Assembly: GCF_018777385.1 (NCBI RefSeq) | Contig: NZ_JAFJYB010000007.1 | Span: 62,001 to 126,000 of the forward strand | DNA length: 64,000 nucleotides | Direction of reading: 5' to 3' | From: Candidatus Symbiopectobacterium endolongispinus | GTDB taxonomy: Bacteria > Pseudomonadota > Gammaproteobacteria > Enterobacterales > Enterobacteriaceae | In this document: in pieces, positions 9,475 through 63,203 of the stretch | Numbering within the stretch: position 1 is the stretch's first letter | Layout: every line of letters begins with the position of its first letter | Translations under genes and position numbers: made by a program | Notes under the pieces: model-generated | Told to the model about the DNA's origin: nothing | What the model saw: the letters and a program-made list of their open reading frames with translations, nothing else | Databases searched by the model: none

Positions 9475-10778
9475 TTATTTCCCTAACCAAGGTTGTGGGT
9501 CGACCGCCTGACCTTGACGGCGAATTTCAAAGTAGAGCACAGGCTGGCTTTGGCCACCGCTGGTGCCCACTAATGCGATCGGTTGTCCGGCTTTCACCTG
9601 TGCGCCGACCGACACCAGTGCGCCCTGGTTATAGCCATACAGGCTCATGTCTTCCTTGCCGTGCTGCAACACCACAACAAGTCCATACCCTTGCAGCCAA
9701 TCCGCCATCAGCACGGTGCCATAGGCAATGGCCTTGACATCGGCACCCTCTGGTGCCGCGATCACCAATCCCTTCCAGCGCAATTCGTCCTGCAAGGGTT
9801 CACCAAAACGTCGTTCAACACGCCCCCTCACTGGCCAGATAGCCTGACCGGCGGGTTGGCCCAACCCGCCGTGCGCGCCATAAGTGAACGCTCACTTTCC
9901 GATGGTTGGTAACGGCTGCCGCTGCGTTTGGCTTGTTCTTCATGTTCACGCACCTTGGCTGCCTCGCGCGCTTCGCGTTCGGCTCGCGCTTTGGCTTCGC
10001 GTTCAGCGCGGGCAATCTGGTCGCGCAGGCGTGCTTCATTCTGTCGTAATTCTGTCAGTTGCTGCTGATCTTTTTCCAGCGTGGATAGGGTTTGTTTACG
10101 TTCACCCCGCGCTTGCTCCAACGCCTTTTGCTGTGTTTGCTGCTCGGCAAGCAACGTTTTTTGCGTTGCTTGCTTCTGCTCTACCTGCCGTTTCTGTGCG
10201 GCGAGCTCGGTGCGGGTGTGTTGCAACTCAGCGATGTTTTGCTGGCGAGCTTCATTCAGGTAACCAAAGTAGGCCAAAATACGCTCGCTACGCTGGCTCT
10301 CTTCGCCGCTGAGGATCAGTTGCAAGCCGTTGTGTTGACCCTGACGAAAGGCGGCGTCTAATTGGCGTGCCAGCAGCGCTTCCTGCTGCTTTCTTTGGCT
10401 TTCGAGTTTGGTGATGGAGGTTGCCAGCGCTTTAAGCTATTCGCTAAGTGTGGCAAGCGTTCCCGTGGTGTCACGCAGTTGGCGACTGGCCCGGGCGATG
10501 GATTGTTCTTGCTGCTGTAACTGGCTGAGCAGCGCGCTGCGTTGCTGTTTCTGCTCTTGAACGCGTTTTTCCTTCTCCGCGATATCCTGTTGCAGCGTCT
10601 TGAGCTGTTGCTGATTATCGGCACCGAGCCCGAGCGTCGGCCACGCAAAAGCCCCAACGCAAACCGCGCTGATACATATCGCGAGCAGCGCATGCAGCGG
10701 TGATTTGCCTGTGCTTGAACCCTGAGCATGCACACTGCATGGTACTCGGGGCGAGACCACTGACGCTTTCTTATTCAT
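9475..10778 (-). pseudogene. envC: Murein hydrolase activator EnvC, stop codon plus frameshift
   Basis: EnvC is a periplasmic coiled-coil protein whose LytM domain activates AmiA and AmiB at the septum. The pieces match in order: N-terminal export region, Gln/Lys-rich coiled coil, and a LytM domain (RFGEPLQDELRWKGLV, LADWLQGYGLVVV, SLYGYNQGALVSVG, PVLYFEIRRQGQAVDPQPWLGK). A TAG at 10437-10439 sits where the family has Gln (SEQ), so a C-to-T change is likely. A one-base deletion near 9855-9866 separates the coiled coil from LytM (expected GLGQPAGQAIWPVRG). The LytM fragment starts without an export signal, so function should be lost. The gene normally upstream in E. coli (gpmI) is absent. Confidence 0.9.
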
Positions 10779-11715: not shown

Positions 11716-12201
11716 ATGTCCGAACAAAACTCCGCCGAAATGACTTTTCAGATTCAACGTATTTACACCAAGGATGTCTCTTTTGAAGCGCCGAATGCTC
11801 CTCAGGTGTTTCAACAGGATTGGCAACCGAAAGTTAAACTGGATCTGGATACGGCGTCCAGCCAACTGGCGGAAGACATGTATGAAGTTGTGCTGCGCGT
11901 AACGGTAACCTCGACGCTGGGCGAAAATACTGCGTTCCTGTGTGAAGTTCAGCAAGCGGGTATTTTCACCGTTGGCGGTCTGGAAGGCACGCAACTTGCA
12001 CATTGCCTGGGCGCTTACTGCCCGAACATTCTGTTCCCGTATGCGCGTGAATGTGTGACCAGCATGGTGACACGCAGTACATTCCCGCAGTTGAATCTGG
12101 CGCCGGTGAACTTCGATGCGCTGTTCATGAACTATCTGCAACAGCAAACGGAAGGGCAGTCCGCAGAAGGTGAAAACGGCGCACCGCGCCTGGATGCCTG
12201 A
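11716..12201 (+). CDS. secB: Protein-export chaperone SecB
   Basis: SecB is the cytosolic tetrameric chaperone that keeps preproteins unfolded and hands them to SecA. The 161-residue product has the family core: [19 protein letters not shown], a [14 protein letters not shown] strand, [10 protein letters not shown] and [11 protein letters not shown]. The acidic, Gln-rich C-terminus ends APRLDA. Its TGA overlaps the gpsA ATG (ATGA), as in E. coli. Intact. Confidence 0.96.
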
Positions 12202-13213
12202 TGAGCACAGCTAATGCTTCCATGACAGTGGTCGGTGCCGGTTCATACGGCACCGCCCTGGCGATTACGCTGGCCCGCAATGGTCACTCCGTGGTGCTGT
12301 GGGGACACGATCCTGCGCACATACAGACATTGCAGGCCGCCCGGTGTAACCAGGCGTTCCTACCGGATGTGCCTTTCCCCGATACGCTGCACCTCGAGTC
12401 TGATTTAGCGCAGGCGCTGGCGGCGAGTCGCGATATTTTGGTGGTGGTGCCGAGCCATGTGTTTGGTGACGTGCTGCGTCAGCTAAAACCGCTGCTGCGT
12501 GCCGATGCACGCTTGGTGTGGGCGACAAAAGGGTTGGAGGCAGAAACCGGGCGCTTGTTGCAAGATGTGGCGCGGGAAGCATTAGGTGAAGAGATTCCTC
12601 TGGCGGTGATTTCTGGTCCGACGTTCGCGAAAGAACTCGCGGCGGGATTACCCACCGCTATCGCGCTGGCCGCGACAGACAAAACGTTTTCTGACGATCT
12701 GCAAACGCTGCTGCACTGTGGTAAGAGTTTTCGCGTCTACAGTAACCCCGATCTTATCGGCGTTCAGCTTGGCGGAAAAATGTGATTTCTATTGGCGCTG
12801 GCATGTCCGATGGCATTGGCTTTGGTGCCAATGCGCGCACGGCGCTCATCACGCGTGGACTGGCGGAAATGACGCGGCTTGGCGTGGCGCTTGGGGCCGA
12901 TCCCGCCACGTTTATGGGGATGGCTGGGCTGGGCGATCTGGTGCTGACCTGTACCGATAACCAATCTCGTAACCGCCGCTTTGGCATGATGCTGGGCCAG
13001 TGGCTGGATGTACAAAGCGCTCAGGATCAGATTGGTCAGGTGGTGGAAGGTTATCGCAATACCAAAGAGGTGCTGGCGTTGGCGCAGCGTCATGGGGTAG
13101 AAATGCCCATCAGTGAACAACTGTGGCAGGTTTTATACTGTGGCAAGGCCGCGCGCGAAGCGGCGCTTACCCTGCTTGGTAGAACGCGCAAAGACGAAAG
13201 CGAGCGCGAATAA
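12201..13213 (+). pseudogene. gpsA: Glycerol-3-phosphate dehydrogenase, 7-base deletion in the middle
   Basis: GpsA reduces dihydroxyacetone phosphate to sn-glycerol-3-phosphate, the backbone of phospholipids. The first half (Rossmann [38 protein letters not shown]) and second half ([33 protein letters not shown]) are both present but in different frames. Between GVQLGG and [10 protein letters not shown] the family has Gly-Gly-Ala-Val-Lys-Asn. Here GGCGG runs straight into AAAAATGTG, so about seven bases are missing at 12775-12778. The lesion falls beside the catalytic lysine. Loss creates a glycerol or glycerol-3-phosphate requirement in E. coli, so this lesion deserves confirmation. Reinitiation would not yield the Rossmann domain. 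Confidence 0.88.
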
Positions 13214-13390: not shown

Positions 13391-14212
13391 ATGTCGACTG
13401 ATGAATTGGAATTGGTGTGGGCAAATATCAAAGCAGAAGGCCGGTCGCTGGCTGATTGCGAGCCGATGTTGGCCAGCTTTTTTCATGCCACATTGCTGAA
13501 ACATGAAAACCTGGGCAGCGCATTGAGTTATATGCTGGCGAACAAGTTGGCAAATTCCATCATGCCGGCGATCGCCATTCGCGAAGTAGTGGAAGAGGCC
13601 TACCGTGCCGATCCGCAAATGATTCTGTCAGCCGCGTGCGACATTAGCGCGGTGTGTCAGCGTGACCCGGCGGTGAATAAATACTCCACGCCGCTGCTTT
13701 ACCTGAAAGGATTTCATGCGCTTCAGGCCTACCGTATTGGTCATTGGCTCTGGTATCAGGGGCGTAAAGAGCTGGCTATTTATTTTCAGAACCAGATTTC
13801 GGTGTCGTTTGGCGTCGATATTCACCCGGCTGCGACCATTGGTTGTGGGATCATGCTCGATCATGCCACCGGGATTGTTATTGGTGAGACGGCGGTGGTG
13901 GAAAATGACGTGTCTATCCTGCAATCTGTCACCTTGGGCGGGACCGGGAAAACTAGCGGCGATCGCCATCCCAAGATCCGCGAAGGGGTTATGATTGGCG
14001 CGGGTGCCAAAATTCTCGGTAATATTGAAGTTGGGCGCGGCGCAAAAATTGGCGCAGGTTCCGTGGTGTTGCAGCCAGTTCCGGCGCATACCACGGCGGC
14101 GGGCGTCCCGGCGCGCATTGTGGGGCGTCCGGAAAGCGACAAACCCGCAATGGACATGGATCAATACTTCAATGGGATCAATCGGGGATTTCAATACGGC
14201 GATGGGATTTGA
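13391..14212 (+). CDS. cysE: Serine O-acetyltransferase
   Basis: CysE acetylates serine with acetyl-CoA to O-acetylserine, the first step to cysteine, in the cytoplasm. The 273-residue product has the N-terminal helical domain (DCEPMLASFFHATLLKHENL) and C-terminal left-handed beta-helix hexapeptides. It has the catalytic DHATGIVIGETA and the GGTGKTSGDRHPKI loop, ending GDGI, whose terminal Ile docks into cysteine synthase. I chose the ATG at 13391, preceded by GGGGAG and AAGG, over an ATG at 13310. It is 177 bases from gpsA. Intact. Confidence 0.95.
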   Translation: MSTDELELVWANIKAEGRSLADCEPMLASFFHATLLKHENLGSALSYMLANKLANSIMPAIAIREVVEEAYRADPQMILSAACDISAVCQRDPAVNKYSTPLLYLKGFHALQAYRIGHWLWYQGRKELAIYFQNQISVSFGVDIHPAATIGCGIMLDHATGIVIGETAVVENDVSILQSVTLGGTGKTSGDRHPKIREGVMIGAGAKILGNIEVGRGAKIGAGSVVLQPVPAHTTAAGVPARIVGRPESDKPAMDMDQYFNGINRGFQYGDGI

Positions 14213-17001: not shown

Positions 17002-17016
17002 AAATGAGGATTAACG

Positions 17017-19286
17017 ATGGCAATTTTAAATCGCACACTGGGTTTTCCGCGCGTCGGACTGCGCCGTGAACTGAAAAAAGCGCAAGAAGGCTATTGGGCA
17101 GGCAACCTTACTCAGGCTGAACTGCTGGAAGTGGGCAAATCGCTGCGGGCACGTCACTGGCAACAGCAGAAAGACGCTGGCGTTGACTTGCTGCCGGTGG
17201 GTGATTTTGCCTGGTATGATCATGTACTGACACCGCCAGCCTGCTGCTGGGTAACGTGCCTGCGTGCCACCAAAATGCCGATGGCAAGGTTGATATCGAC
17301 ACGCTGTTCCGCATTGGCCGTGGTCGTGCGCCGACGGGCGAACCGGCGGCCGCCGCAGAGATGACCAAATGGTTTAACACCAACTACCACTACATGGTGC
17401 CCGAGTTCACTCAGGGACAGCGTTTTGCCTTGACATAGACGCAACTGCTCGACGAAGTGGACGAAGCGTTGGCACTGGGCCACAAAGTCAAACCTGTGCT
17501 GCTGGGGCCAGTGACCTACCTGTGGTTGGGCAAAGTGAAGGGTGACGCATTCGATCGTCTCTCCCTGCTGAAAGACATTCTGCCGGTGTATCAACAGGTG
17601 CTGGCAGAGCTGGCTAAACGTGGTATCGAGTGGGTTCAGATTGATGAGCCTGCACTGGTGCTGGAACTGCCGCAAGAGTGGCTGGATGCCTTTAAACCGG
17701 CTTACGATGCGTTGCAGGGCTCGGTCAAACTGCTGTTGACCACCTATTTTGACAGCATCGGCCATAACCTGGATACTCTCCGTGCGCTGCCGGTACAAGG
17801 TCTGCATGTGGATCTGGTGCACGGTAAGGATGATGCCGCTGCGCTGCTGGCGCAACTGCCGGCTGATTGGCTGGTATCACTGGGTGTGATTAACGGTCGT
17901 AACGTGTGGCGTGCGGATCTCAGCACCTGGTTTGAACGCCTGCAACCGCTGGTCGGGCAGCGTCAACTGTGGATCGGTTCTCCCTGCTCTCTGCTGCACA
18001 GCCCGATCGATCTGAGCGTGGAAACGCGTTTGGATGACGAAGTTAAAAGCTGGTTCGCCTTCGCATTGCAGAAGTGTGCTGAACTGTCGCTGCTGACGGC
18101 GGCACTGAACAGTGGCGAGGGTGCTGCTCTGGTGGAATACAGCGCACCGATTCGTGCGCGCAGCACCTCAACGCATGTTAACAATGCGGCAGTGACTCAG
18201 CGTATGGCGGCGATTACCGCGCAGGATAGCCAGCGTCAACACGCCTATCCGGTACGTGCCGAGGCACAGCGCGCACGTTTTAATCTGCCCGACTGGCCGA
18301 CTACCACCATTGGTTCCTTCCCGCAAACCACAGAAATTCGTGGCCTGCGTCTGGACTTCAAGCAAGGCCGCCTTGATGGCAACAACTACCGTACCGGCAT
18401 CGCCGAACACATCAAACAGGCGATTGTCAAGCAGGAACGTCTGGGTCTGGACATATTGGTGCACGGTGAAGCAGAACGTAACGACATGGTCGAGTATTTT
18501 GGTGAACACCTGGATGGCTTTATCTTCACCCAGAACGGGTGGGTGCAGAGCTACGGTTCACGCTGCGTGAAACCGCCGGTGATCATTGGTGATATCAGCC
18601 GCCCGGAACCGATCACAGTCGAGTGGGCCAAGTATGCCCAATCCCTGACCGACAAGCCGGTAAAAGGTATGTTGACCGGGCCGGTGACCATCCTGTGCTG
18701 GTCGTTCCCGCGCGAAGATGTCAGCCGTGAAACCATCGCCAAGCAGATCGTGCTGGCACTGCGTGATGAAGTGGCGGATTTGGAAAGTGCAGGTATCGGT
18801 ATTATCCAGATTGATGAACCGGCACTGCGTGAAGGGCTGCCGCTGCACCGTTCTGACTGGCAGGCTTATCTGGCATGGGGCGTGGAAGCATTCCGTCTGA
18901 ATGCGGCCGTGGTACGGGATGACACCCAGATTCACACCCATATGTGTTACTGCGAGTTTAATGACATCATGGACTCCATTGCGGCATTGGATGCGGATGT
19001 GATCACCATTGAAACCTCGCGTTCCGACATGGGGCTGTTGGAGTTGTTCGAAGAGTTCGAGTACCCGAATGAAATTGGGCCGGGCGTGTACGATATCCAC
19101 TCACCGAACGTACCGAGCGTGGAATGGATTGAAGCGCTGTTGCGTAAAGTGGCGCAGCGTATTCCCGCCGAGCGCCTGTGGGTCAACCCGGACTGCGGCC
19201 TGAAAACGCGCGGTTGGCCGGAAACGCGTCAATCACTGGCTAACATGTTCGAAGCGGCACAGCGCTTACGCGCAAACGAAGTTTAA
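17017..19286 (+). pseudogene. metE: Cobalamin-independent methionine synthase, frameshift plus stop
   Basis: MetE methylates homocysteine from 5-methyltetrahydropteroyltri-glutamate. The full ~755-codon gene is present: N-terminal [20 protein letters not shown], and C-terminal zinc/homocysteine site residues in [21 protein letters not shown] and [15 protein letters not shown]. Two lesions lie early. Near 17226-17233 an ACAC in place of AC shifts the frame by two (expected [14 protein letters not shown]). A TAG at 17436-17438 replaces the Trp of the family [13 protein letters not shown]. From 17439 onward the frame is open to the stop, so decay looks recent. MetH, if present elsewhere, would have to supply methionine. 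Confidence 0.92.
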
Positions 19287-21978: not shown

Positions 21979-24630
21979 TTAGCCCGTGTTGCGCATACCC
22001 GCTGCCACGACGGCAATGGTCACCATCAGCGCCAGTTCCGCCTCTAGGCTGGGTTTTCCTGCTCACGCGAACGGTGTAACAGCTCGGCTTGCAGCACGTT
22101 TAACGGGTCGGTATAGACGTTACGCAGCGCGATAGATTCAACAATCCACGGCAAATCTGCCATCAGATGGTCATCGTTGGAAATCCGCAGCACCACGTTG
22201 ATATCTGCCGCCAACTGGTCGCGCAACTCTTTGCCCAAAGGCCACAGTTTTTCGTCGACCAGACGCTGATCGTAGTATTCCGCCAGCCACAGGTCCGCTT
22301 TGGCGAACACCATTTCCAGCATCCCGATACGCGTGGAGAAGAACGGCCAGTCGCGGCACATGGTTTCCAGCGCTTTCTGCTGACCATTTTCCACGATTTT
22401 TTGCAACGCCGCGCCCGCGCCCAACCAGGCTGGTAGCATCAGGCGGTTTTGCGTCCAGGCAAAAATCCACGGAATGGCGCGCAGGCTTTCTACACCACCG
22501 TTAGGACGGCGTTTGGCCGGACGTGAGCCGAGCGGCAGTTTACCCAGTTCCAGTTCCGGCGTTGCGGCGCGGAAGTAAGGCACAAAGTCGTGATTTTCAC
22601 GCACATAACCGCGATACATATCGCAAGACACGCGAGAAAGCTCATCCATGATGTCGTGCCATTCCGGTTTCGGCTCTGGCGGCGGCAGCAGGTTAGCCTC
22701 AATGATAGCACCGGTATAGAGCGACAAATTGCTGATGGTCACTTCCGGTAAACCGAACTTGAAGCGGATCATTTCTCCCTGTTCGGTGACGCGCAGGCCG
22801 CCTTTCAGGCTGCCCGGCGGTTGTGACAGCAGGGCGGCGTGAGCCGGTGCGCCACCGCGACCGATGGAGCCGCCGCGTCCGTGGAACAGCGTAAGCGCAA
22901 TGCCTGCTTTCTCGCAGGTTTTGATCAGTGCGTCCTGCGCGCGGTATTGCGCCCAGGAAGCCGCCATCAAGCCCGCATCTTTGGCGGAGTCGGAATAGCC
23001 GATCATCACCATCTGCTTGCCCTGGATAAAGCCGCGATACCAGTCGATACCCAGCAGTTGCTTCATCACATCGTCGGCGTTGTTCAGGTCATCCAGCGTT
23101 TCAAACAGCGGGGCGACTGGCAAGGCGAAGGGACAACCCGCTTCTTTTAACAGCAGGTGCACGGCCAGCACGTCGGATGGTGTGCGCGCCATGGAGATCA
23201 CGTAAGCGGCGATAGAGCCCTGCGGCGCTTCGGCGATCACCTGGCAGGTATCCAGCACTTCTTTGGTTTCTGCGCTCGGTTCCCACTGACGGGGCAACAA
23301 CGGACGTTTGGAACTTAATTCTCGAATCAGGAACGCCTGCTTGTCGGATTCAGACCAGCTTTCGTAGTCGCCCAGCCCAAGGTAGCGGGTGATTTCCGCC
23401 AGTGCTTCCGTATGACGCGTACTTTCCTGACGAGCATCGATACGTACCAACGGCACGCCGAAACAGCGCACGCGGCGCAGGGTATCGAGCAGTTGGCCGT
23501 CGGCGATAATGCCCATGCCACAGGCATGTAGCGATTGGTAACACGCGTGCAGCGGTTCCCACAGCTGTTCGTTGTGTTCCAGCAGATCGTGCGGACGCGG
23601 CGTGCGCTCGCCCTTCAGGCTGCCCTCAAGGTAAGTCAGGGTCGCGTTAAGCTGCGCACACAGGGATTTCATAATAACGCGATAGGGTTCCTGAACCTAT
23701 TCCCCTTCTGCGATACCGGTGCGCTCACGCAGCTCCGGTGTGCATTCCGACATGGAAAGCTCGGACACCAGTACCTGAATATCACGCAAAAACAGGTCTG
23801 CGGCTTTCCAACGGCTCAGCAGCAGGACGTGACGGGTAATTTTGGCGGTCACGTTTGGGTTGCCATCGCGGTCGCCACCCATCCAAGAGGTAAAGCGTAC
23901 GGGGACAGAATCCACCGGCAGGCGGAAACCAAAGGATTTTTCCAACTGCTCATCCAGCTCGCGCAGGAAGGCTGGCACCCCTTCCCACAGGCTGTTTTCC
24001 ACCACGGCAAAGCCCCATTTGGCTTCGTCTACGGGGGGGGGTTGGGCGGATCTTACGGATCTCATCCGTATGCCACGACTGGGCGATCAACTGACGCAGA
24101 CGGCGCATGATCTGGTTGCGCTCATAGTCTGCCAGATCGTTGTGATCGAACTGTTTTAGGCAGGTGTTTACCTCAACCAGCTTATGAATCAGCGTGCGAC
24201 GGGTAATTTCTGTAGGGTGTGCGGTCAGCACCAGTTCAATGGAGAGCATCTCCACCGCGTCACGAATATCGCGTTCGCTTAAGTGTGCCTGCGCTTTCAG
24301 ACGATCGAACCCCTGAGATAAAATTTCCGGGTTGCTGGCCGCTTCGCCGCGTGGCGAAATTGAGTGATATTGCTCTGCTGTGTTGGTCAGATTAAGGAAC
24401 TGGCTGAAGGCGCGCGCGACTGGGAGCAACTCCTCATTGGAGAGATTTTGCAGCGTGTTCAACAGCTCCTGACGGTGCTTTTCATTGCCTGCGCGGGGCG
24501 ATTTTGACAGCTTACGGATCGTCTCGACCTTATCAAGAATACTCTCTCCTAATGCATCCTTGATGGTGTCACCAAGAAGTTTACCCAGCATGCTCACATT
24601 ACTTCGCATCGCGGAATATTGTTCGTTCAT
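21979..24630 (-). pseudogene. ppc: Phosphoenolpyruvate carboxylase, three lesions
   Basis: Ppc carboxylates PEP to oxaloacetate, the main anaplerotic reaction on sugars. The complete ~883-codon gene is traceable: [14 protein letters not shown] near the N-terminus, [17 protein letters not shown], the active-site [14 protein letters not shown] loop, and the C-terminal AAGMRNTG. Lesions: a C9 run (24033-24041) breaks the frame before [16 protein letters not shown]; a TAG at 23697-23699 sits before VQEPYR, probably from CAG; and a frameshift near 22044-22056 separates HRSREQE from [14 protein letters not shown]. All catalytic segments are otherwise well conserved, so inactivation is recent. It lies next to argE on the same strand, as in E. 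coli. Confidence 0.93.
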
Positions 24631-24865: not shown

Positions 24866-26015
24866 TTACCGGCAGAAATGTTGCACCATCTGGGTGATCA
24901 ACTTATGCGTTGGGGCGATAAATGCGGTGTCGATATATTCATCCGGCTGGTGGGCTTGTTCGATCGAACCGGGGCCGAGCACCAGCGTCGGGCACAGCGT
25001 CTGGATAAACGGCGCTTCGGTGCAGTAGTTCACCACATCCGTGGGCACGCCCAGCAATTTCTCAATCACGCCTACCAAGGCGTGATCCACTGGGCATTCA
25101 TAGCAGGGGATCGGCGGATGCAGCTCGCTGACGCTCACGCGTCCCGGCCAACGCTCGCTCACTGGCGCCAGCGCTTCCGTCACCAGACCGTTTAAATCGT
25201 TCAGCGTTAATCCTGGAAGTGGGCGGATATCCATATGCAGTTCACAGCAGGTACAGATGCGGTTAGCCGCATCGCCACCGTGAATATGGCCGAAATTCAT
25301 GGTTGGATAGGGGATATGGAACGCCGCGTTGTGATAACGGGTTTGCAGCGTATTGCGCAACACCATCAAGTGGGAGATGGCATCGTGCATCAGTTCGATA
25401 GCGTTTACGCCGCGCGAAGGATCGCTTGAATGGCCGGATTGCCCTTGAATCCGCACTGCATTTGACATATGGCCTTTGTGGGCGCGAATCGGTTTCAACG
25501 ATGTTGGTTCGCCAATGATGGCGCAGTCCGGGCGTATCTGCGTAGATTCAGAGAAATATTTGGCGCCCGCCATGGTGGTCTCTTCATCGGCGGTGGCCAG
25601 CACGTAAATCGGTTTGGTCAGCGTTGCCGGATCGATGTCGCGCAGCGCATCCAGAATAAAGGCGGAAGAAGCCTTTCATATCCGCAGTGCCCAGCCCGTA
25701 AAGCTTGTTATCGTGTTCTGTCAGGGTAAAGGGATCGCGCGTCCAGCGGCCATCATCAAACGGCACCGTATCGATATGCCCAGCCAGCAGCAAGCCACCC
25801 TGGCCTTGGCCGATGCGCGCCAGCAGATTGAATTTATGCCGCGTACCGGGCACTGGCTGTACCTTAACGTGAAAGCCCAAATCGGCAAACCATCCGGCGA
25901 GCAGATTGATTAATGCTTCATTGCTCTGATCTAGCGCCTGATCGGTAGCGCTGATGGAAGGCGTCGCGATCAACGCCCGATACAGCTCAATAAATGGGGG
26001 TAAATTCATCTTCAC
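24866..26015 (-). pseudogene. argE: N-acetylornithine deacetylase, one-base insertion
   Basis: ArgE removes the acetyl group from N-acetylornithine to give ornithine. The gene has the full 383-residue family length. Metal and catalytic residues are visible in [44 protein letters not shown] and [13 protein letters not shown]. After DMKGFF the sequence TTCTTCCGCC has one extra C near 25662-25666; removing it gives the expected [20 protein letters not shown]. The dimetal site is split between the two frames, so no active product is expected. It is divergent from argCBH across the ArgR boxes. Confidence 0.92.
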
Positions 26016-36565: not shown

Positions 36566-36586
36566 CCCTGCTACGGCGGGGTTTTT
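36566..36586 (+). terminator. Rho-independent terminator after tatC
   Basis: CCCTGC (36566-36571) pairs with GCGGGG (36576-36581, one G-U) around TACG, followed by five T. It ends the tatABC operon 14 bases after the ancestral tatC stop. Confidence 0.75.
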
Positions 36587-37003: not shown

Positions 37004-38438
37004 ATGGCTCATTGTGCTCAATCCCCTTCTTTTCTTTTACATCAGGTCACCTGCCAATTTGCGACAGGCTTGACGCTTTTTGGTCCGCTGACGCTGTCGC
37101 TTGAACCCTCATTGTGCGGCCTGGTCGGGCTTAACGGCTGCGGAAAAACATCGCTGCTGCGGCTGCTGGCAGGGCACGACACCCCCCGCTTTCGGTCATA
37201 TTGAACGCGTGGGTTCTCTGGCATATGTTGCTCAGCAACATAGGGTTTTATCAACCACAACGCTGGCTGAACTGAGCGGCGGTGGACGCGTGCGGGCACT
37301 GCTGTGCGCGGCGTTTATGACTGATGCTGACTATTTACTGCTTGATGAACCGACGAACCACCTCGATAGACAGGCGAGAACGTAGTTTTACGACAAGCTT
37401 TCCCAGCGACGTGGCGGTGCATTGGTGGCAACGCACGATCGTGAACTACTGGCGATGATGTCGCGCATTTTGGAACTGACCCTGACGGGTCTGCGCAACT
37501 ATGGCGGCAATTATGATGACTATCAGCGGCAGCGCCAGGCTGCTCAGGCGGCATTGGAACATGCCACTACCGAGCGTCGGCGCACCCGAATGCGTTTGCA
37601 AAAAGAGCATGATGCCAGCCAGCGGCGCTCGGCACAGACCTTACGCACGGTAGATTCACTGAATATCGCCTCATTTGAGCGGGTGCAATACAAAGCGGCG
37701 GCAAAAGCGCGTTTAGGCACACTGCGTAAGCAGCACCGTGAGCAAAATGGTGTGCTTAATGCTGCTGTCTGTGAGATGCGAGGAAGGGTCGAGGAAGATA
37801 GCCCGATATTATTTACGCTGCCAGGTAGCCATGTCGCACCCAATAAACCGGTGTTAGTGCTCGACGATCTCGTATTGCCCCACATCGCGAATGCGCCTTT
37901 CAACTGGAGGATGGATGGCCCGATGCGGGTAGCGCTGCGCGGGCCAAACGGCTGCGGCAAATCGACCATGCTTAAGGTGATTATGGGAGATGGAACGCCG
38001 GTATCGGGTGACTGTTGTGTTTCAGTCACCACGGCTTATCTTGATCAGCATTTGTCGCGTTTGGATCTCTCGTTGTCGGTACTGGCACATCTTAATACCG
38101 ACGATACGCCTCTAGAGGAGGGGGTCTTGCGTACCCGGTTGGCGCAACTGCAACTGGATGCGAATAAAGTGGGTCTACCTCTGGCAGCATTAAGCGGCGG
38201 TGAGCGTTTGAAGGCGGCTTTGGCTTGTGTGCTGTGGCGTTGCGATGCCGCACAATTGTTGTTGGATGAACCCACCAACCATCTCGATCTTACGTCAACG
38301 CAGGCGATTGAGGCGGCGTTATCCACGTTTCCGGGGGCAATGATTGTAGTATCGCACGATGAAGCCTTTCTTTCTGGTTTGAGGCTTACGCACAGCCTCG
38401 AATGGCGGGAAACGGGGCGGCAGTGTCAACATGAGTAG
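37004..38438 (+). pseudogene. ABC-F family ATPase, deleted, frameshifted and with a stop
   Basis: The remnant encodes two ABC ATPase domains in tandem without membrane segments, the ABC-F arrangement of ribosome-associated ATPases. Domain 1 has Walker A GLNGCGKTS and Walker B LLLDEPTNHLD; domain 2 has GPNGCGKST, signature LSGGERLK and LLLDEPTNHLD. Three defects are visible. The frame shifts at the C6 run after AGHDT (about 37181-37186). Roughly 50 residues between the Q-loop (VAQQH) and the signature of domain 1 are missing, leaving TTLAELSGGGR with a damaged signature. A TAG at 37383-37385 interrupts QART-FYDK. AGGAG precedes the ATG at 37004. The exact family member is not identified. Confidence 0.8.
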
Positions 38439-40271: not shown

Positions 40272-41435
40272 TCAGTCCAGAATGATATGCGGGTAAAAGC
40301 GTGACAGATCCTGAGTGATCAGTTCGCGATCTTCGCGCAGACCAATGCCGCACGGCTGATCGTTGACCAGCCAACTGCCGATCACCGTATGGCTGTCACC
40401 AAAGGTTGGCAGTGGGTGATACTGCTGAACGATCTTGCCTTCTTCGCCGTAAGGACCGTCAACGGAGGCGATCTGCTGCCCATTTTTCACGATCTGAATG
40501 TTGGCACCTTCACGTGAAAACAGCGGTTTAACCACGTAGCTGTCGAGTGGCGGGTGATCGTCATCAGCAAAGAAGTAGGCGGGCAGCAGGTTGGGATGAT
40601 TGGGGAACATTTCCCACAGCATCGGCAGCAACGCCTTGTTAGAGATGATGCTTTTCCAGGCCGGTTCCAGCCAGCGCACTCCTGCATCTTCCAGCTTGGT
40701 GGAAAATATTTCGCGCAGCATGAATTCCCACGAGTAGAGCTTGAACAGGTTGCCGATCACCTGGTTTTGCATATCGGTGAATTGGCCTTTTTCACCCAGC
40801 CCAATCTCTTCCATGTAGAGAAATTCCGTGGGCACGCCCGCTTCCAGCGCGCAATCCTGAAGGTACTGCACTGTACCGCGATCTTCTTCGGTATCCTGAC
40901 AGCAGGCCATATGCAGTAGACCGAAGCCGTGATTGAGGCGCAGTTCTTCAAAGCGGGCGATCAGCGCTTCCTGAATGCTGTTGTACTGATCGGCATCCTG
41001 TGCCAGCTTACCGGCTTCTTTCTGATCTTCCAGCCATAACCATTGAAAAAAGGCCGCTTCATACAGCGATGTCGGCGTATCGGCATTGTTTTCCAGCAGC
41101 TTGGCCTGGCCTTTTCCGTCATAGGCCAGATCGAGGCGCGAGTAAAGTGAGGACTGCTGGCTGCGCCATGAGCTTCTGACAAATTCCCATGTGTGCTTGG
41201 GAATGCAGAATTTGGTCAGCAATGCATCGCTGCCGACCACCTTTTCGACTACTTGCAGACACATCTGGTGCAGTTCTGCAGTTGCCGCTTCCAACTCTTC
41301 AATCTGCGCCAACGTGAACTGGTAGTAAGCATTTTCACACCAGTAGGGCTCACCGTACATGGTGTGAAAGTTGAAACCAAACTCTGTCGCCTTTTCACGC
41401 CAATCCGGGCGTTCGGCAATATCAACGCGCTTCAT
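40272..41435 (-). CDS. ygiC: Glutathionylspermidine synthase-like ATP-grasp protein YgiC
   Basis: The 387-residue product belongs to the glutathionylspermidine synthase preATP-grasp family (C-terminal synthetase domain). Visible segments are [20 protein letters not shown] (substrate region), [10 protein letters not shown], the ATP-site [14 protein letters not shown] and [19 protein letters not shown]. The true product is unknown. It lies 11 bases after ygiB, matching E. coli ygiBC. Intact. Confidence 0.9.
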
Positions 41436-50300: not shown

Positions 50301-51620
50301 TTATTTGAATTTCGCCCGCTCCATAGTGGGGATCAGCAGCAGGTACATCACGCCCCAGGCGACCAGATAGGCCACGGAGCTGATAGCGAACAGCGCCCAA
50401 TAATTGCCTGATGCTTCGAGTACGGCACCGATCACCGTGGAGAAGATCACGCTGCCGATCATGCCAAAGGTGCTACCGATGCCGACGACTGAACCCACCG
50501 CCGCTTTGGGGAACAAATCGGATACCGATGTCAGCAGGTTTGCTGACCAGCCTTAGTGCGCAGCAACAGCCAACCCGACGAGGGCAACGGCCAGCCACAA
50601 GCTTTCGACCTGCGTCGCGGCAAAAATAGGAATGACCGCACAGGCGCAAATCAGCATGGTGGTTTTGCGCGCTTTCGCGGCACTGAATCCCATACTCATC
50701 AGCTTGCCGGGCAACCAGCCTGCGCCCAGACTGCCGCCAATAGCAAACAGATAGATCATGATCAACGGCACACCCAATCCAGCCATATTGATATCACGGG
50801 TTTCGTTCAGCCATTTTGGCAGCCAGAACAGGAAGAACCACCAGATGGGATCGGTCAGCATCTTGCCCAATGCAAAGGCCCATAGTTGACGGTAGCGCAG
50901 TAGGTGAGTCCATTTGATGGATTCCACGCTGACATGCTCTTCTTTGTCCTGACGGATCCAGGCCAGTTCCTCGGCAGAGGCTTTATCTTGCGGTTTGCCA
51001 AACAGGAAAAACCACGGGATAAGCCAGACAAAACCTACCGCCCCAAGAATCAGAAACGCCCCGTGCCAGCCGTAATGAATGGCGATAAACGGAATCAAGG
51101 CAGGGGAGACAACGACGCCAAGGTTAACGGCGACGCCCAGAATCCCTGTAGCCAGCGTGCGCTCTTTCTTGGGGTGCCAGTCGGCGATGACTTTCATCGC
51201 AGCCGGGAAGTTGGCCGATTCCCCCAATCCAAGAATGACGCGCACAATGGCAAACCCGACCACGGTGCCGACCGCGGCGTGCAACATAGCGGCGGCGCTC
51301 CAGACAACCATCGCCACGGCGTAGCTGATTTTGGTGCCGAGCTTGTCAATGATACGGCCGCAAATCAGCGTGCCCGCGCCGTAGGCAATGGTGAAGGCGT
51401 TTACCAGCCAGCTGTACTCCATTTGCGTCCAGCCGATATCTTTTTGCAGCATCGGCGCCAGCAACCCGAGCAGTTGGCGGTCCATGTAGTTCACCGTGGT
51501 GGCGAACACCAGCATCGAGCAGATAGTCCAGCGATAGCGGCCTTTGGGGGGCGCGCTGGCGGTGGTTTGGCTGTCGCCGTGAGGGACAGCAGCTTCTTTT
51601 TGGCTAACTTGAGTGTCCAT
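50301..51620 (-). pseudogene. MFS anion:cation symporter (exuronate-type), internal stop
   Basis: The conceptual 439-residue protein has twelve hydrophobic segments and the anion:cation symporter family N-terminus RWTICSMLVFATTVNYMDRQ, close to ExuT-like uronate carriers. A TAA at 50553-50555 follows VGLAVAAH, in a position where the family has Gln (AHQGWSANLL), so CAA to TAA is likely. The last 84 codons (about three helices) are cut off, and the product should be inactive. It is the distal gene of the minus-strand sugar-acid operon, 76 bases after the large protein. Substrate is inferred from family and neighbours. Confidence 0.82.
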
Positions 51621-57335: not shown

Positions 57336-59721
57336 TTAGAAAGCGACACTCATGCCCAATTGGAAGGTGCGTCCCGGAGCAATGGACAACTGTTGATCGT
57401 AATAGTGTGCGTTATTGGGATCGGTATTGGTCGGTACCTCAATGTTGCGGCTGTTCTGGTAATCCCAATATTTACGGTCGGTCAGGTTGTAGATACCGCC
57501 GTTGACGCGCACGTTTTTGGTAATGCGATAGTATGCGGTCAAATCCACCAAACCATAGCCCGGCACGCGCATAAAGGTGACGTTGTCTGTGCCCAGTACG
57601 TTGCCGTCACCGATGCGTTTACGGCCAGCGGCGTAATCAGCGGTCTTCCCTTTGGTAAAGGTGGTGATCAGCGCACCGCCATAGGTGTTGCTCGGATCGT
57701 CATAAGCCAGTCCAACCACGGCTTTTTGTGGCGTGACGGTATCGAGATTGACGTAGCGGTCACCGGAGGCGCTGGATTTTGCGGCACCCCTGGGTATAGC
57801 CGTAAGCCAGACGGGCGCTAAACCCTTTGGCCTGTTCAAACCAGGTGCCCAGTTCGAAACGTGCACTCAGCTCGCCACCGTAGATATAGGCTTTATCGCG
57901 GTTTTCGGTGAGATAGAGGGTACTGATGGTGTTTGGCAGATTGGCAAACAGATCGGGGTTTGACCCGCGACGATAGTAACCGTTGGCGATAAAGTTTTTA
58001 TAATCGTTATAGAACGCGGCAGCGCTGATCGTTACCCCGTCTACAATACGGCCCTTCAGCCCTAGCTCATAGTTATCGCTGGTTTCGGTTTTCAGATTAG
58101 GATCGCCGATGGTGGCATAAGGGCTGGAGCCGCCGAAGTAACCCAGTGCCCATGAACCATAAAGCTGCCCGGCATTGGGGAACTGCGCACCGCGTTTGTA
58201 CTGTACATAGGCCAGCAGATCGGGTTTCAGATTGTACTGGAAGGCCAGTGCAGGCAGGATCTGTCCATCGGCGTTGGTGCCGTACATTTTGGCGGTGTCA
58301 CTGGCCGTGACGTTACCGTTGGTGTTGGTAAACAGGTTATAGGTGTTTTCCGGCTTAGCGTGCTGCCAGGCGAAACGCACTGCAGGGATAATGGAAAAAT
58401 CACGACCCGCCAAGTCCCAGGTCATCTTATCCTGCACAAAAGCACCAGCATTGATGATCTTGCTGTCGGCTTGATGGCGACCCAGGTTTACTGAGCCAGC
58501 CAGTATATTTTTGGCGACCAGTGGGTGTTCAGACTCTGATTGGCGCAGGTTAACCCCGTAACTGAAGCGGGGGTTGCGCCATTCTTTGGTCGCTTTGCTT
58601 TCGAGCCCAACGGTGTTGGTATCGTAGCCGCTCCATACCTGAGACGGTAGTGCGGCATTGCTGATGGTGTAATCGTGGGCTTCGGTTTTGCTAAAGAACA
58701 GTTTGCTGTTAAGGCTGTCAAACAGCAGACCGTCAGTTGGCGTATACAGATCGGCAACGCTCACGCCCCAACGGCGCGTTTTGCTGTCCTGGAATGAGGT
58801 GCTGCCATCGCGGGTGGAACTGCCAGAGGCACCCACATTCCAGGTGGGAAAGTTGCTGTGGTTAAACTTCTCTTAATAGTCCACGGTGCCGGTTAGCTGG
58901 CGCAGGTCAGTCGCCTGCCAGATGTTGGAGACCAGTACAGCGTTGGAGTGCCAGTTGGCCGGATTGCTGTCGATGGTGGCATCACGGTGGTTTTCGGTTT
59001 CATTACCGTCGCGGCGGCTGTAGACCACCACGCCGCGCAGGGTGTCGTCACCGCCAGCGGCGGTAATCCCGTTGTGGAAACTGCGATCGGCGGAGTCATA
59101 TCCGGCCTGATAGCCAAAATAGCTGTGTTTATCGCCGCTAAGGAAGTTGTCCGGCGATTTAGGCATAAATGAAGCAGAGCCGCCTAACGCGTTATTGCTG
59201 TTATACACGTCGGTAGCACCGGAGGCGATATCTACTGAGCCGTACAGGTAGGGATCGAGGTAATCACCGCGGCCAATGCCGGTGCTGCCTGCCTGAACGC
59301 GACCGCTCGGCGTGGAAGTACCGCGCTCGGTCCCTGCGGGAAGCTCAACGCCGTCGATATCGATAGAGACGCGGTTGTTTTCCAGCCCGCGAATGTTGTA
59401 GCCGCTGTAGCCACCGCGGTCGTAGCTGCTTTTGCCTGCGGTAGCCCCGGCGCTGACGCCCGGTGCGCTCACCAGTGGCTGATAGCGCATGATATTGCCG
59501 AAGGTATTACCACCTTCTTTCAAGAGGTCGTTGGCTGTCAGGGTGGTTTTCGTGCCTGCTTCTCGCTCAATGCGGGGAGAAAGTACCGTCATGGTGTCCT
59601 GGGACTCTTTCTGGGCAGTATCCGATTTGCCCTGCGCGCTTTGCGCCGCATTGGCACCAAATGCCAAGCCGGACAGGACGCCGGTCAGCAAAATGTTATT
59701 CATATTCTTATGATTTAACAT
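57336..59721 (-). pseudogene. TonB-dependent receptor (haem/transferrin-type), stop plus frameshift
   Basis: The conceptual ~794-residue protein has a signal peptide (ILLTGVLSGLAFGANA), a TonB-box-like DTMTVLSP, a plug domain (NIRGLENNRVSIDIDGVELP, GGSASFMPKSPDNFL) and a 22-strand-type barrel ending APGRTFQLGMSVAF with the terminal Phe. It resembles haemoglobin/transferrin-type receptors; the ligand is not certain. A TAA at 58873-58875 (TVDY-stop-EKFNHSNF) probably came from CAA, and the C4 run 57787-57790 carries an extra base (expected YTQGAAKSSASG). Fur boxes upstream indicate former iron control. No tonB, hemin-transport or siderophore genes adjoin it. Confidence 0.85.
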
Positions 59722-62354: not shown

Positions 62355-62465
62355 TCTCCCCCTTTGTTACCTGGCCGATGGCGCGGGTACCACGGCAAAG
62401 GATTACCCGTTTGTTTTATGCCGAAGTCGCTATACTAGCGGCGGCGGTTGGCTTATGAGGTCGTT

Positions 62466-63203
62466 ATGTTATTCATTATCCGTTTTGTGGTAGTGGTGAT
62501 TTTTTCCATTCTGATTTGCCTGTTCGGTACAATTTATTGCCTGTTTAGCCCGAAGAATCCGCGCCACGTGGCGACCTTTGGCCATGCGTTTGGGCGGCTC
62601 TCTACCCTGTTTGGTCTAAAAGTAGAAGTCAGAGTGCCTGAGGATGCGGGAAACTATGGCAACTGCATTTACATTGCCAACCATCAGAACAACTACGATA
62701 TGGTGACGGCGGCAAATGCGGTGCAGCCTGGCACGGTTACGGTCGGTAAAAAAAGCCTGGTGTGGATCCCGTTCTTTGGTCCGCTCTACTGGCTGGCAGG
62801 TAACTTGCTGATTGACAGAAAAAACCGCGCCAAGGCGCACGGCACTATTGTGCAAGTCGTTCAACACATCAAAGAGCACAATATTTCTGTCTGGATGTTT
62901 CCAGAAGGCACGCGCAGCCGTGGTCGTGGGCTAATGCCGTTCAAGACCGGAGTGTTCCATGCCGCGATTAGTGCAGGCGTACCGATTGTGCCGATTTGTG
63001 TGACCGATACGCACAATAAAGTCAAACTGAACCGGTGGAATAACGGTCATGTTATCGTTGAAATGCTGCCACCGATTGATGCCTCTGCATACGGTAAAGA
63101 GCAGGTGCAAGAGCTGGCCGCGCATTGTCATGATGTGATGGCAGCGCGTTTGGTTGAACTGAATGCTGAAGTGGCTGAGCGGGAGAAAGCGGCGAAGCGT
63201 TAA
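62466..63203 (+). CDS. plsC: 1-acyl-sn-glycerol-3-phosphate acyltransferase
   Basis: PlsC acylates lysophosphatidate to phosphatidate at the inner membrane. The 245-residue product has an N-terminal membrane helix (FIIRFVVVVIFSILICLFG), the acyltransferase motifs NHQNNYDM (NHX4D), FPEGTRSRG and VPIVPICV. The ATG at 62466 has GAGG upstream; a longer frame from 62448 is rejected. The gene is intact even though gpsA, which makes the glycerol-3-phosphate feeding this pathway, is broken. It lies 63 bases before ftsP, as in E. coli. Confidence 0.95.
   Translation: MLFIIRFVVVVIFSILICLFGTIYCLFSPKNPRHVATFGHAFGRLSTLFGLKVEVRVPEDAGNYGNCIYIANHQNNYDMVTAANAVQPGTVTVGKKSLVWIPFFGPLYWLAGNLLIDRKNRAKAHGTIVQVVQHIKEHNISVWMFPEGTRSRGRGLMPFKTGVFHAAISAGVPIVPICVTDTHNKVKLNRWNNGHVIVEMLPPIDASAYGKEQVQELAAHCHDVMAARLVELNAEVAEREKAAKR

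Follow-up and report, generated by a model that had tools for sequence, protein, structure and literature searches.

Is gpsA truly broken in Candidatus Symbiopectobacterium endolongispinus, and if so, from where would the cell draw the glycerol-3-phosphate (G3P) on which its phospholipids are built? The gene lies in what we call the window, the whole stretch of 64,000 nucleotides analysed here (contig NZ_JAFJYB010000007.1, positions 62,001 to 126,000). An initial annotation of this DNA had proposed that a seven-base loss breaks the gpsA frame and removes an Ala-Val pair next to a lysine. Our comparison with four genomes of the same genus, G001, G002, G003 and G004 (96, 95, 95 and 88% identical to the window, respectively), bears out both proposals, and it allows the consequences drawn from them to be weighed against the rest of the genome.

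The lesion in gpsA

In each of the four related genomes gpsA is a single frame of 339 amino acids, spanning 1,020 bases, whereas the corresponding stretch of the window has 1,013 bases and falls into two frames. The alignment places the difference after position 12775 of the window, where seven bases are missing that all four relatives possess. The locus is laid out below; the names secB and cysE, like metE, ppc, argE, envC, pagP, rmuC and argH further on, were recognised by eye.

11716 to 12201, plus strand: secB, the upstream neighbour of gpsA, whole (open reading frame list; name by eye)
12201 to 12785, plus strand: first gpsA fragment, on the side of the NAD-binding domain, a 194-residue ORF with a premature TGA at 12783-12785
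12775 to 12776, plus strand: site of the seven-base loss, from the alignment to G001-G004
12782 to 12785, plus strand: GTGA, in which the stop of the first fragment overlaps a possible start of the second (from the sequence)
12782 to 13213, plus strand: second gpsA fragment, a 143-residue ORF that opens at GTG, is in the native frame and closes with the native stop at 13213
13391 to 14212, plus strand: cysE, the downstream neighbour, whole in the window (frame check against G003; name by eye)

The first fragment ends in ...GVQLGGKM, followed by the TGA. At this point 17 aligned relatives carry an invariant Ala193, Val194, Lys195 and Asn196, the lysine of which is presumably the catalytic one. 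In the window Ala193-Val194 are gone and the Ala-Val-Lys-Asn motif is interrupted, so that no single chain contains it. More broadly, the pattern G[VI]QLGGA[VI]KN is present in 108 of 109 relative loci, the one without a match (L031) coming from a genome of another family, and a continuous match of 300 residues is absent at only 3 of 110 gpsA loci, namely that of the window (L002), L015 and L111. The profile NF000939 (PRK00094, NAD(P)H-dependent glycerol-3-phosphate dehydrogenase; 339 positions) covers the first fragment with positions 2-193 at 350.1 bits and the second with positions 198-337 at 275.2 bits; neither fragment reaches its curated cut-off of 473 bits, the score that would assign a single protein to GpsA. 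The frame break in the window's gpsA is thus confirmed. With 194 and 143 of 339 residues kept in several ORFs, and with orthologues whole in G001-G004, the gene has the structure expected of a young pseudogene of the near-complete kind, defined in the methods of a study of this symbiont as one that keeps more than 65% of the gene, is split into several ORFs and has intact orthologues in relatives (PMC13345370). A scan for promoters and terminators gave nothing above shuffled sequence, and a comparison with E. coli, in which gpsA is common, yielded nothing further. The predicted structure of a relative's whole GpsA was not used because its confidence is low (mean pLDDT 58, below 50 at residues 173-271).

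Gene decay around gpsA and the age of the break

The genome that contains the window comprises 4,492,448 bp in 10 contigs. For Symbiopectobacterium endolongispinus, the main text of the same study gives a genome of 4.492 Mb in which 2,559 genes are intact and 2,679 are pseudogenes; it describes both this bacterium and Sodalis endolongispinus (3.7 Mb) as endosymbionts living inside Tremblaya in the mealybug Pseudococcus longispinus (PMC13345370). Both this size and a very high pseudogene load are matched in our data. Over the first 36.5 kb, in which the window is collinear with G001, G003 and G004, a gene-by-gene frame check of 28 reference ORFs found 8 of them broken in the window and 7 in G001. 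These 28 ORFs are whole in G003 and G004 by construction, ORFs that the window carries only in part or at an edge were left out of the tally, and two of the 28 appear to be antisense shadows of secB and argH. Among the eight broken in the window are gpsA, metE, ppc, argE, envC, pagP and rmuC. As gpsA is thus one of eight broken among 28 nearby ORFs, its loss belongs to the known mass gene decay of this symbiont, the picture of which it leaves unchanged. The suggestion in the initial annotation of an unusual metabolic tie to a host is correspondingly weakened, since the genome fits that of a published endosymbiont with more pseudogenes than intact genes. The frame check was preferred because the window does not stand out by bare indel counts. 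Of its 15 private indels, 12 have a length that is not a multiple of three, as do 6 of the 8 private to G001 and 4 of the 6 private to G003 (36,360 bases, coding and non-coding; G002 left out); since G004, the farthest removed of the four relatives, has 17 of 20, such counts are not decisive as a sign of decay.

Several further disruptions were observed in the window. The genes metE (17014-19286), ppc (21979-24630) and argE (24866-26015) are frame-broken relative to G003 and G004. In G001, too, the frames of metE and ppc are disrupted, to judge from the indel lists by changes other than those in the window. The frame-broken envC (9475-10778) is whole in G001, G003 and G004. Collinearity with G001, G003 and G004 ends near position 36585, where either the order has been rearranged or a long stretch has been gained or lost. 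Three ORFs beyond it cover their best NCBIfam profiles only in part and are likely gene remnants: 37422-38438 (ABC-F protein), 40272-41435 (glutathionylspermidine synthetase/amidase) and 57760-58836 (TonB-dependent heme receptor). In the genome search, a D-galactonate-type MFS transporter at about 50400-51542 on the minus strand also has an in-frame stop.

On the branch leading to the window, gpsA has accumulated 7 silent and 2 amino-acid changes (5 and 2 in a stricter count, of which 3 silent and no amino-acid changes fall in the first fragment). Both replacements, Ala199Ser and Gly270Trp, affect invariant columns beyond the lesion, which weighs little since 93 of the 143 columns of the second-fragment region are invariant. 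The scarcity of amino-acid relative to silent changes, i.e. a low dN/dS, suggests that the gpsA break is young, and from the sequence it looks recent. Genes classed as intact, rmuC counted among them, show 228 silent and 98 amino-acid changes (dN/dS 0.135), and broken genes 67 and 30 (dN/dS 0.143), with no clear rise over the intact ones. Because the two classes have similar dN/dS, the breaks would be young relative to the split from G001; their near-equality fits very young breaks, and also some assembly error.

Could the break then stem from assembly or base calling, the true gene being readable, either complete or shortened in frame by a few bases beside an A run? The seven-base loss adjoins a run of five A, and the absence of a clear relaxation of selection in the broken genes would agree with such an artefact, as would the finding that 5 of the 13 frameshift sites inspected, that of gpsA included, touch runs of at least five. 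The earlier argument that a loss of seven bases is no homopolymer error holds to the extent that its size exceeds a plain run error; its position next to the A run, however, means that a run-length miscall may have added to that size. Against an artefact, the remaining 8 of the 13 sites lie in runs of at most three identical bases, and several are changes of two or seven bases. Moreover, the published study of what we infer to be the same genome presents RNA, ribosome and proteome data alongside its 2,679 pseudogenes, and its text describes pseudogene products as rare in the proteome (PMC13345370). We consider an artefact at gpsA quite improbable. Least probable of all is a working enzyme made of the two fragments, be it a two-piece GpsA whose second part is started anew at the GTG overlapping the TGA that ends the first, or a product of recoding at the A run. 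While the GTGA overlap invites this idea, and while the fragments jointly keep the whole protein except for a few residues, the first of them without an amino-acid change, the GTG at 12782 is no more than the codon for the native Val in the V-K-N-V stretch of the relatives. The invariant Ala-Val would be missing from such an enzyme, Asn196 is lost from its first fragment, and the second carries Ala199Ser and Gly270Trp, subject to the caveat on invariant columns given above. In addition, all 42 pseudogene proteins detected in the symbiont belong to the truncated class according to the same text (PMC13345370).

Routes to glycerol-3-phosphate in the genome

Could another gene stand in for gpsA? 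In whole-genome profile searches, PF07479, the C-terminal domain of GpsA, has a single match, which is the gpsA of the window, and PF01210, the N-terminal domain, matches gpsA and one further locus at a marginal 23.2 bits (cut-off 23.1; E 1.4e-4) over positions 2-112 only. Thus, no second gpsA was found by these searches, nor any other DHAP reductase of the GpsA family. The acyltransferases are preserved: plsB and plsY are whole, above their cut-offs and without internal stops, and plsC, said by the initial annotation to be intact, is indeed full length.

62448 to 63203, plus strand: plsC, full length, NF011593 positions 1-244 of 245 at 444.1 bits (cut-off 501), TIGR00530 at 157.3 bits (cut-off 102.95)

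It lies below the equivalog cut-off of NF011593 and above that of TIGR00530.

Equally preserved is the route from glycerol, on which the cell had been predicted to depend. The genes glpF (279 residues) and glpK (502 residues) are full-length neighbours on contig C4, both above their cut-offs (glpK with 755.1 bits) and without internal stops, and amino-acid changes of the pair on the window branch are few, at 27 silent to 6 amino-acid, and 5 silent to 1. A second gene of the MIP family is split. With a whole glycerol channel and a whole glycerol kinase, growth on glycerol-derived G3P is feasible, although with so many genes broken the integrity of the glpF-glpK pair may be chance.

The uptake of G3P itself, from the host or a partner, has less in its favour. 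The genes ugpA, ugpE and ugpC are whole and above their cut-offs, as is an ORF of the UgpQ type, so that the transporter could serve if a change in the tail of UgpB were tolerated. But ugpB, whole in G002, G003 and G004, is frameshifted near codon 403 of 438, and for this reason the supply of host G3P via Ugp, as envisaged in the initial annotation, is doubtful; we regard it as unlikely. The other transporter considered there, GlpT, gave ten weak matches in the genome, none of which reached the cut-off. In six stretches totalling 76 kb, E. coli GlpT has one partial match with 33% identity, and GlpA, GlpB, GlpC and GlpQ have none at E 1e-8.

Taken together, the single gpsA of this insect endosymbiont, a host-restricted bacterium whose pseudogenes number in the thousands, has probably lost its function through a recent mutation, and G3P is probably supplied by way of glycerol. 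DHAP would no longer be reduced to G3P; instead, glycerol would enter by GlpF and be phosphorylated by GlpK to furnish the phospholipid backbone. Selection on gpsA may have been relaxed because the host cell supplies glycerol, the source of which could be the host, Tremblaya or Sodalis. Judging from its gene content, the cell is most likely a G3P auxotroph fed by glycerol via GlpF and GlpK, and a dependence on a supply of glycerol or G3P is plausible. The passages on E. coli in a study of gpsA describe a mutant of this gene as a G3P auxotroph, and according to a section heading of the same paper Borrelia gpsA mutants grow like wild type in vitro (PMC8929704), so that the loss of gpsA may come at little cost in a rich medium. 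Only tentatively, and with clearly less confidence, do we go a step further and propose that the membrane synthesis of a bacterium with a 4.5-Mb genome might depend on glycerol or G3P from partners in the same cell nest, perhaps from the co-resident Sodalis. If true, nested symbionts would here be seen at the very beginning of a dependence of one on another for a lipid precursor.

Relatives and known systems

A related decaying genome presents the reverse state. In G001 (87% complete, 120 contigs), gpsA is whole, glpK is split into ORFs of 316 and 174 residues (L166, 1501-3009), and ugpB is split as well. In G002 (one contig of 4,942,431 bp), G003 and G004, gpsA, glpF, glpK, ugpB, ugpA, ugpE and ugpC are all whole, and the same seven genes are whole in the co-resident Sodalis endolongispinus (L098; genome G224, 3.7 Mb). 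As only two decaying genomes are concerned, the either-or pattern of gpsA and glpK loss may be chance.

How does the lesion compare with described cases? It resembles the pseudogenes of 'Ca. Symbiopectobacterium endolongispinus' that the authors of the genome-wide study place in their youngest class, small frame-breaking indels in nearly whole genes; gpsA has no occurrence in the main text of that study (PMC13345370). Throughout the literature searched we found no statement on the gpsA of Symbiopectobacterium, which may nevertheless be in print in the genome paper or in supplements. The genome paper of the symbiont is reportedly Garber 2021. As the window's bacterium probably does, the E. coli gpsA mutant BB20-14 lacks GpsA and takes its G3P from outside (PMC8929704), but BB20-14 is a laboratory mutant, whereas the lesion in the window is natural. 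Genes of phospholipid synthesis have also been lost from Buchnera and other reduced symbionts among the Enterobacteriaceae, for which supply by the host has been put forward (PMC11481867, PMC12356351). Those symbionts, however, have highly reduced genomes and have lost most of the pathway, while the window's genome has 4.5 Mb and keeps plsB, plsY and plsC whole. Thus, the kind of event and the decay of this genome are already known, as is the loss of phospholipid genes in reduced symbionts. What is mildly surprising, to a modest degree, is the early loss, from a genome of 4.5 Mb, of a gene that PMC11481867 lists as ancestrally essential in the Enterobacteriaceae. A freshly broken gpsA in a genome of this size, in which the acyltransferases tested and the route from glycerol are whole, offers a testable case of how a dependence on supplied glycerol begins.

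Across the family, the C-terminal domain of GpsA is present in 158 of 198 genomes and absent from 40, where presence of the domain does not equal a whole gene, since the window's own genome counts as present. The 20 genomes listed among the 40 without the domain all measure 0.2 to 1.0 Mb, and some family genomes of 0.5 Mb, e.g. G009, keep it.
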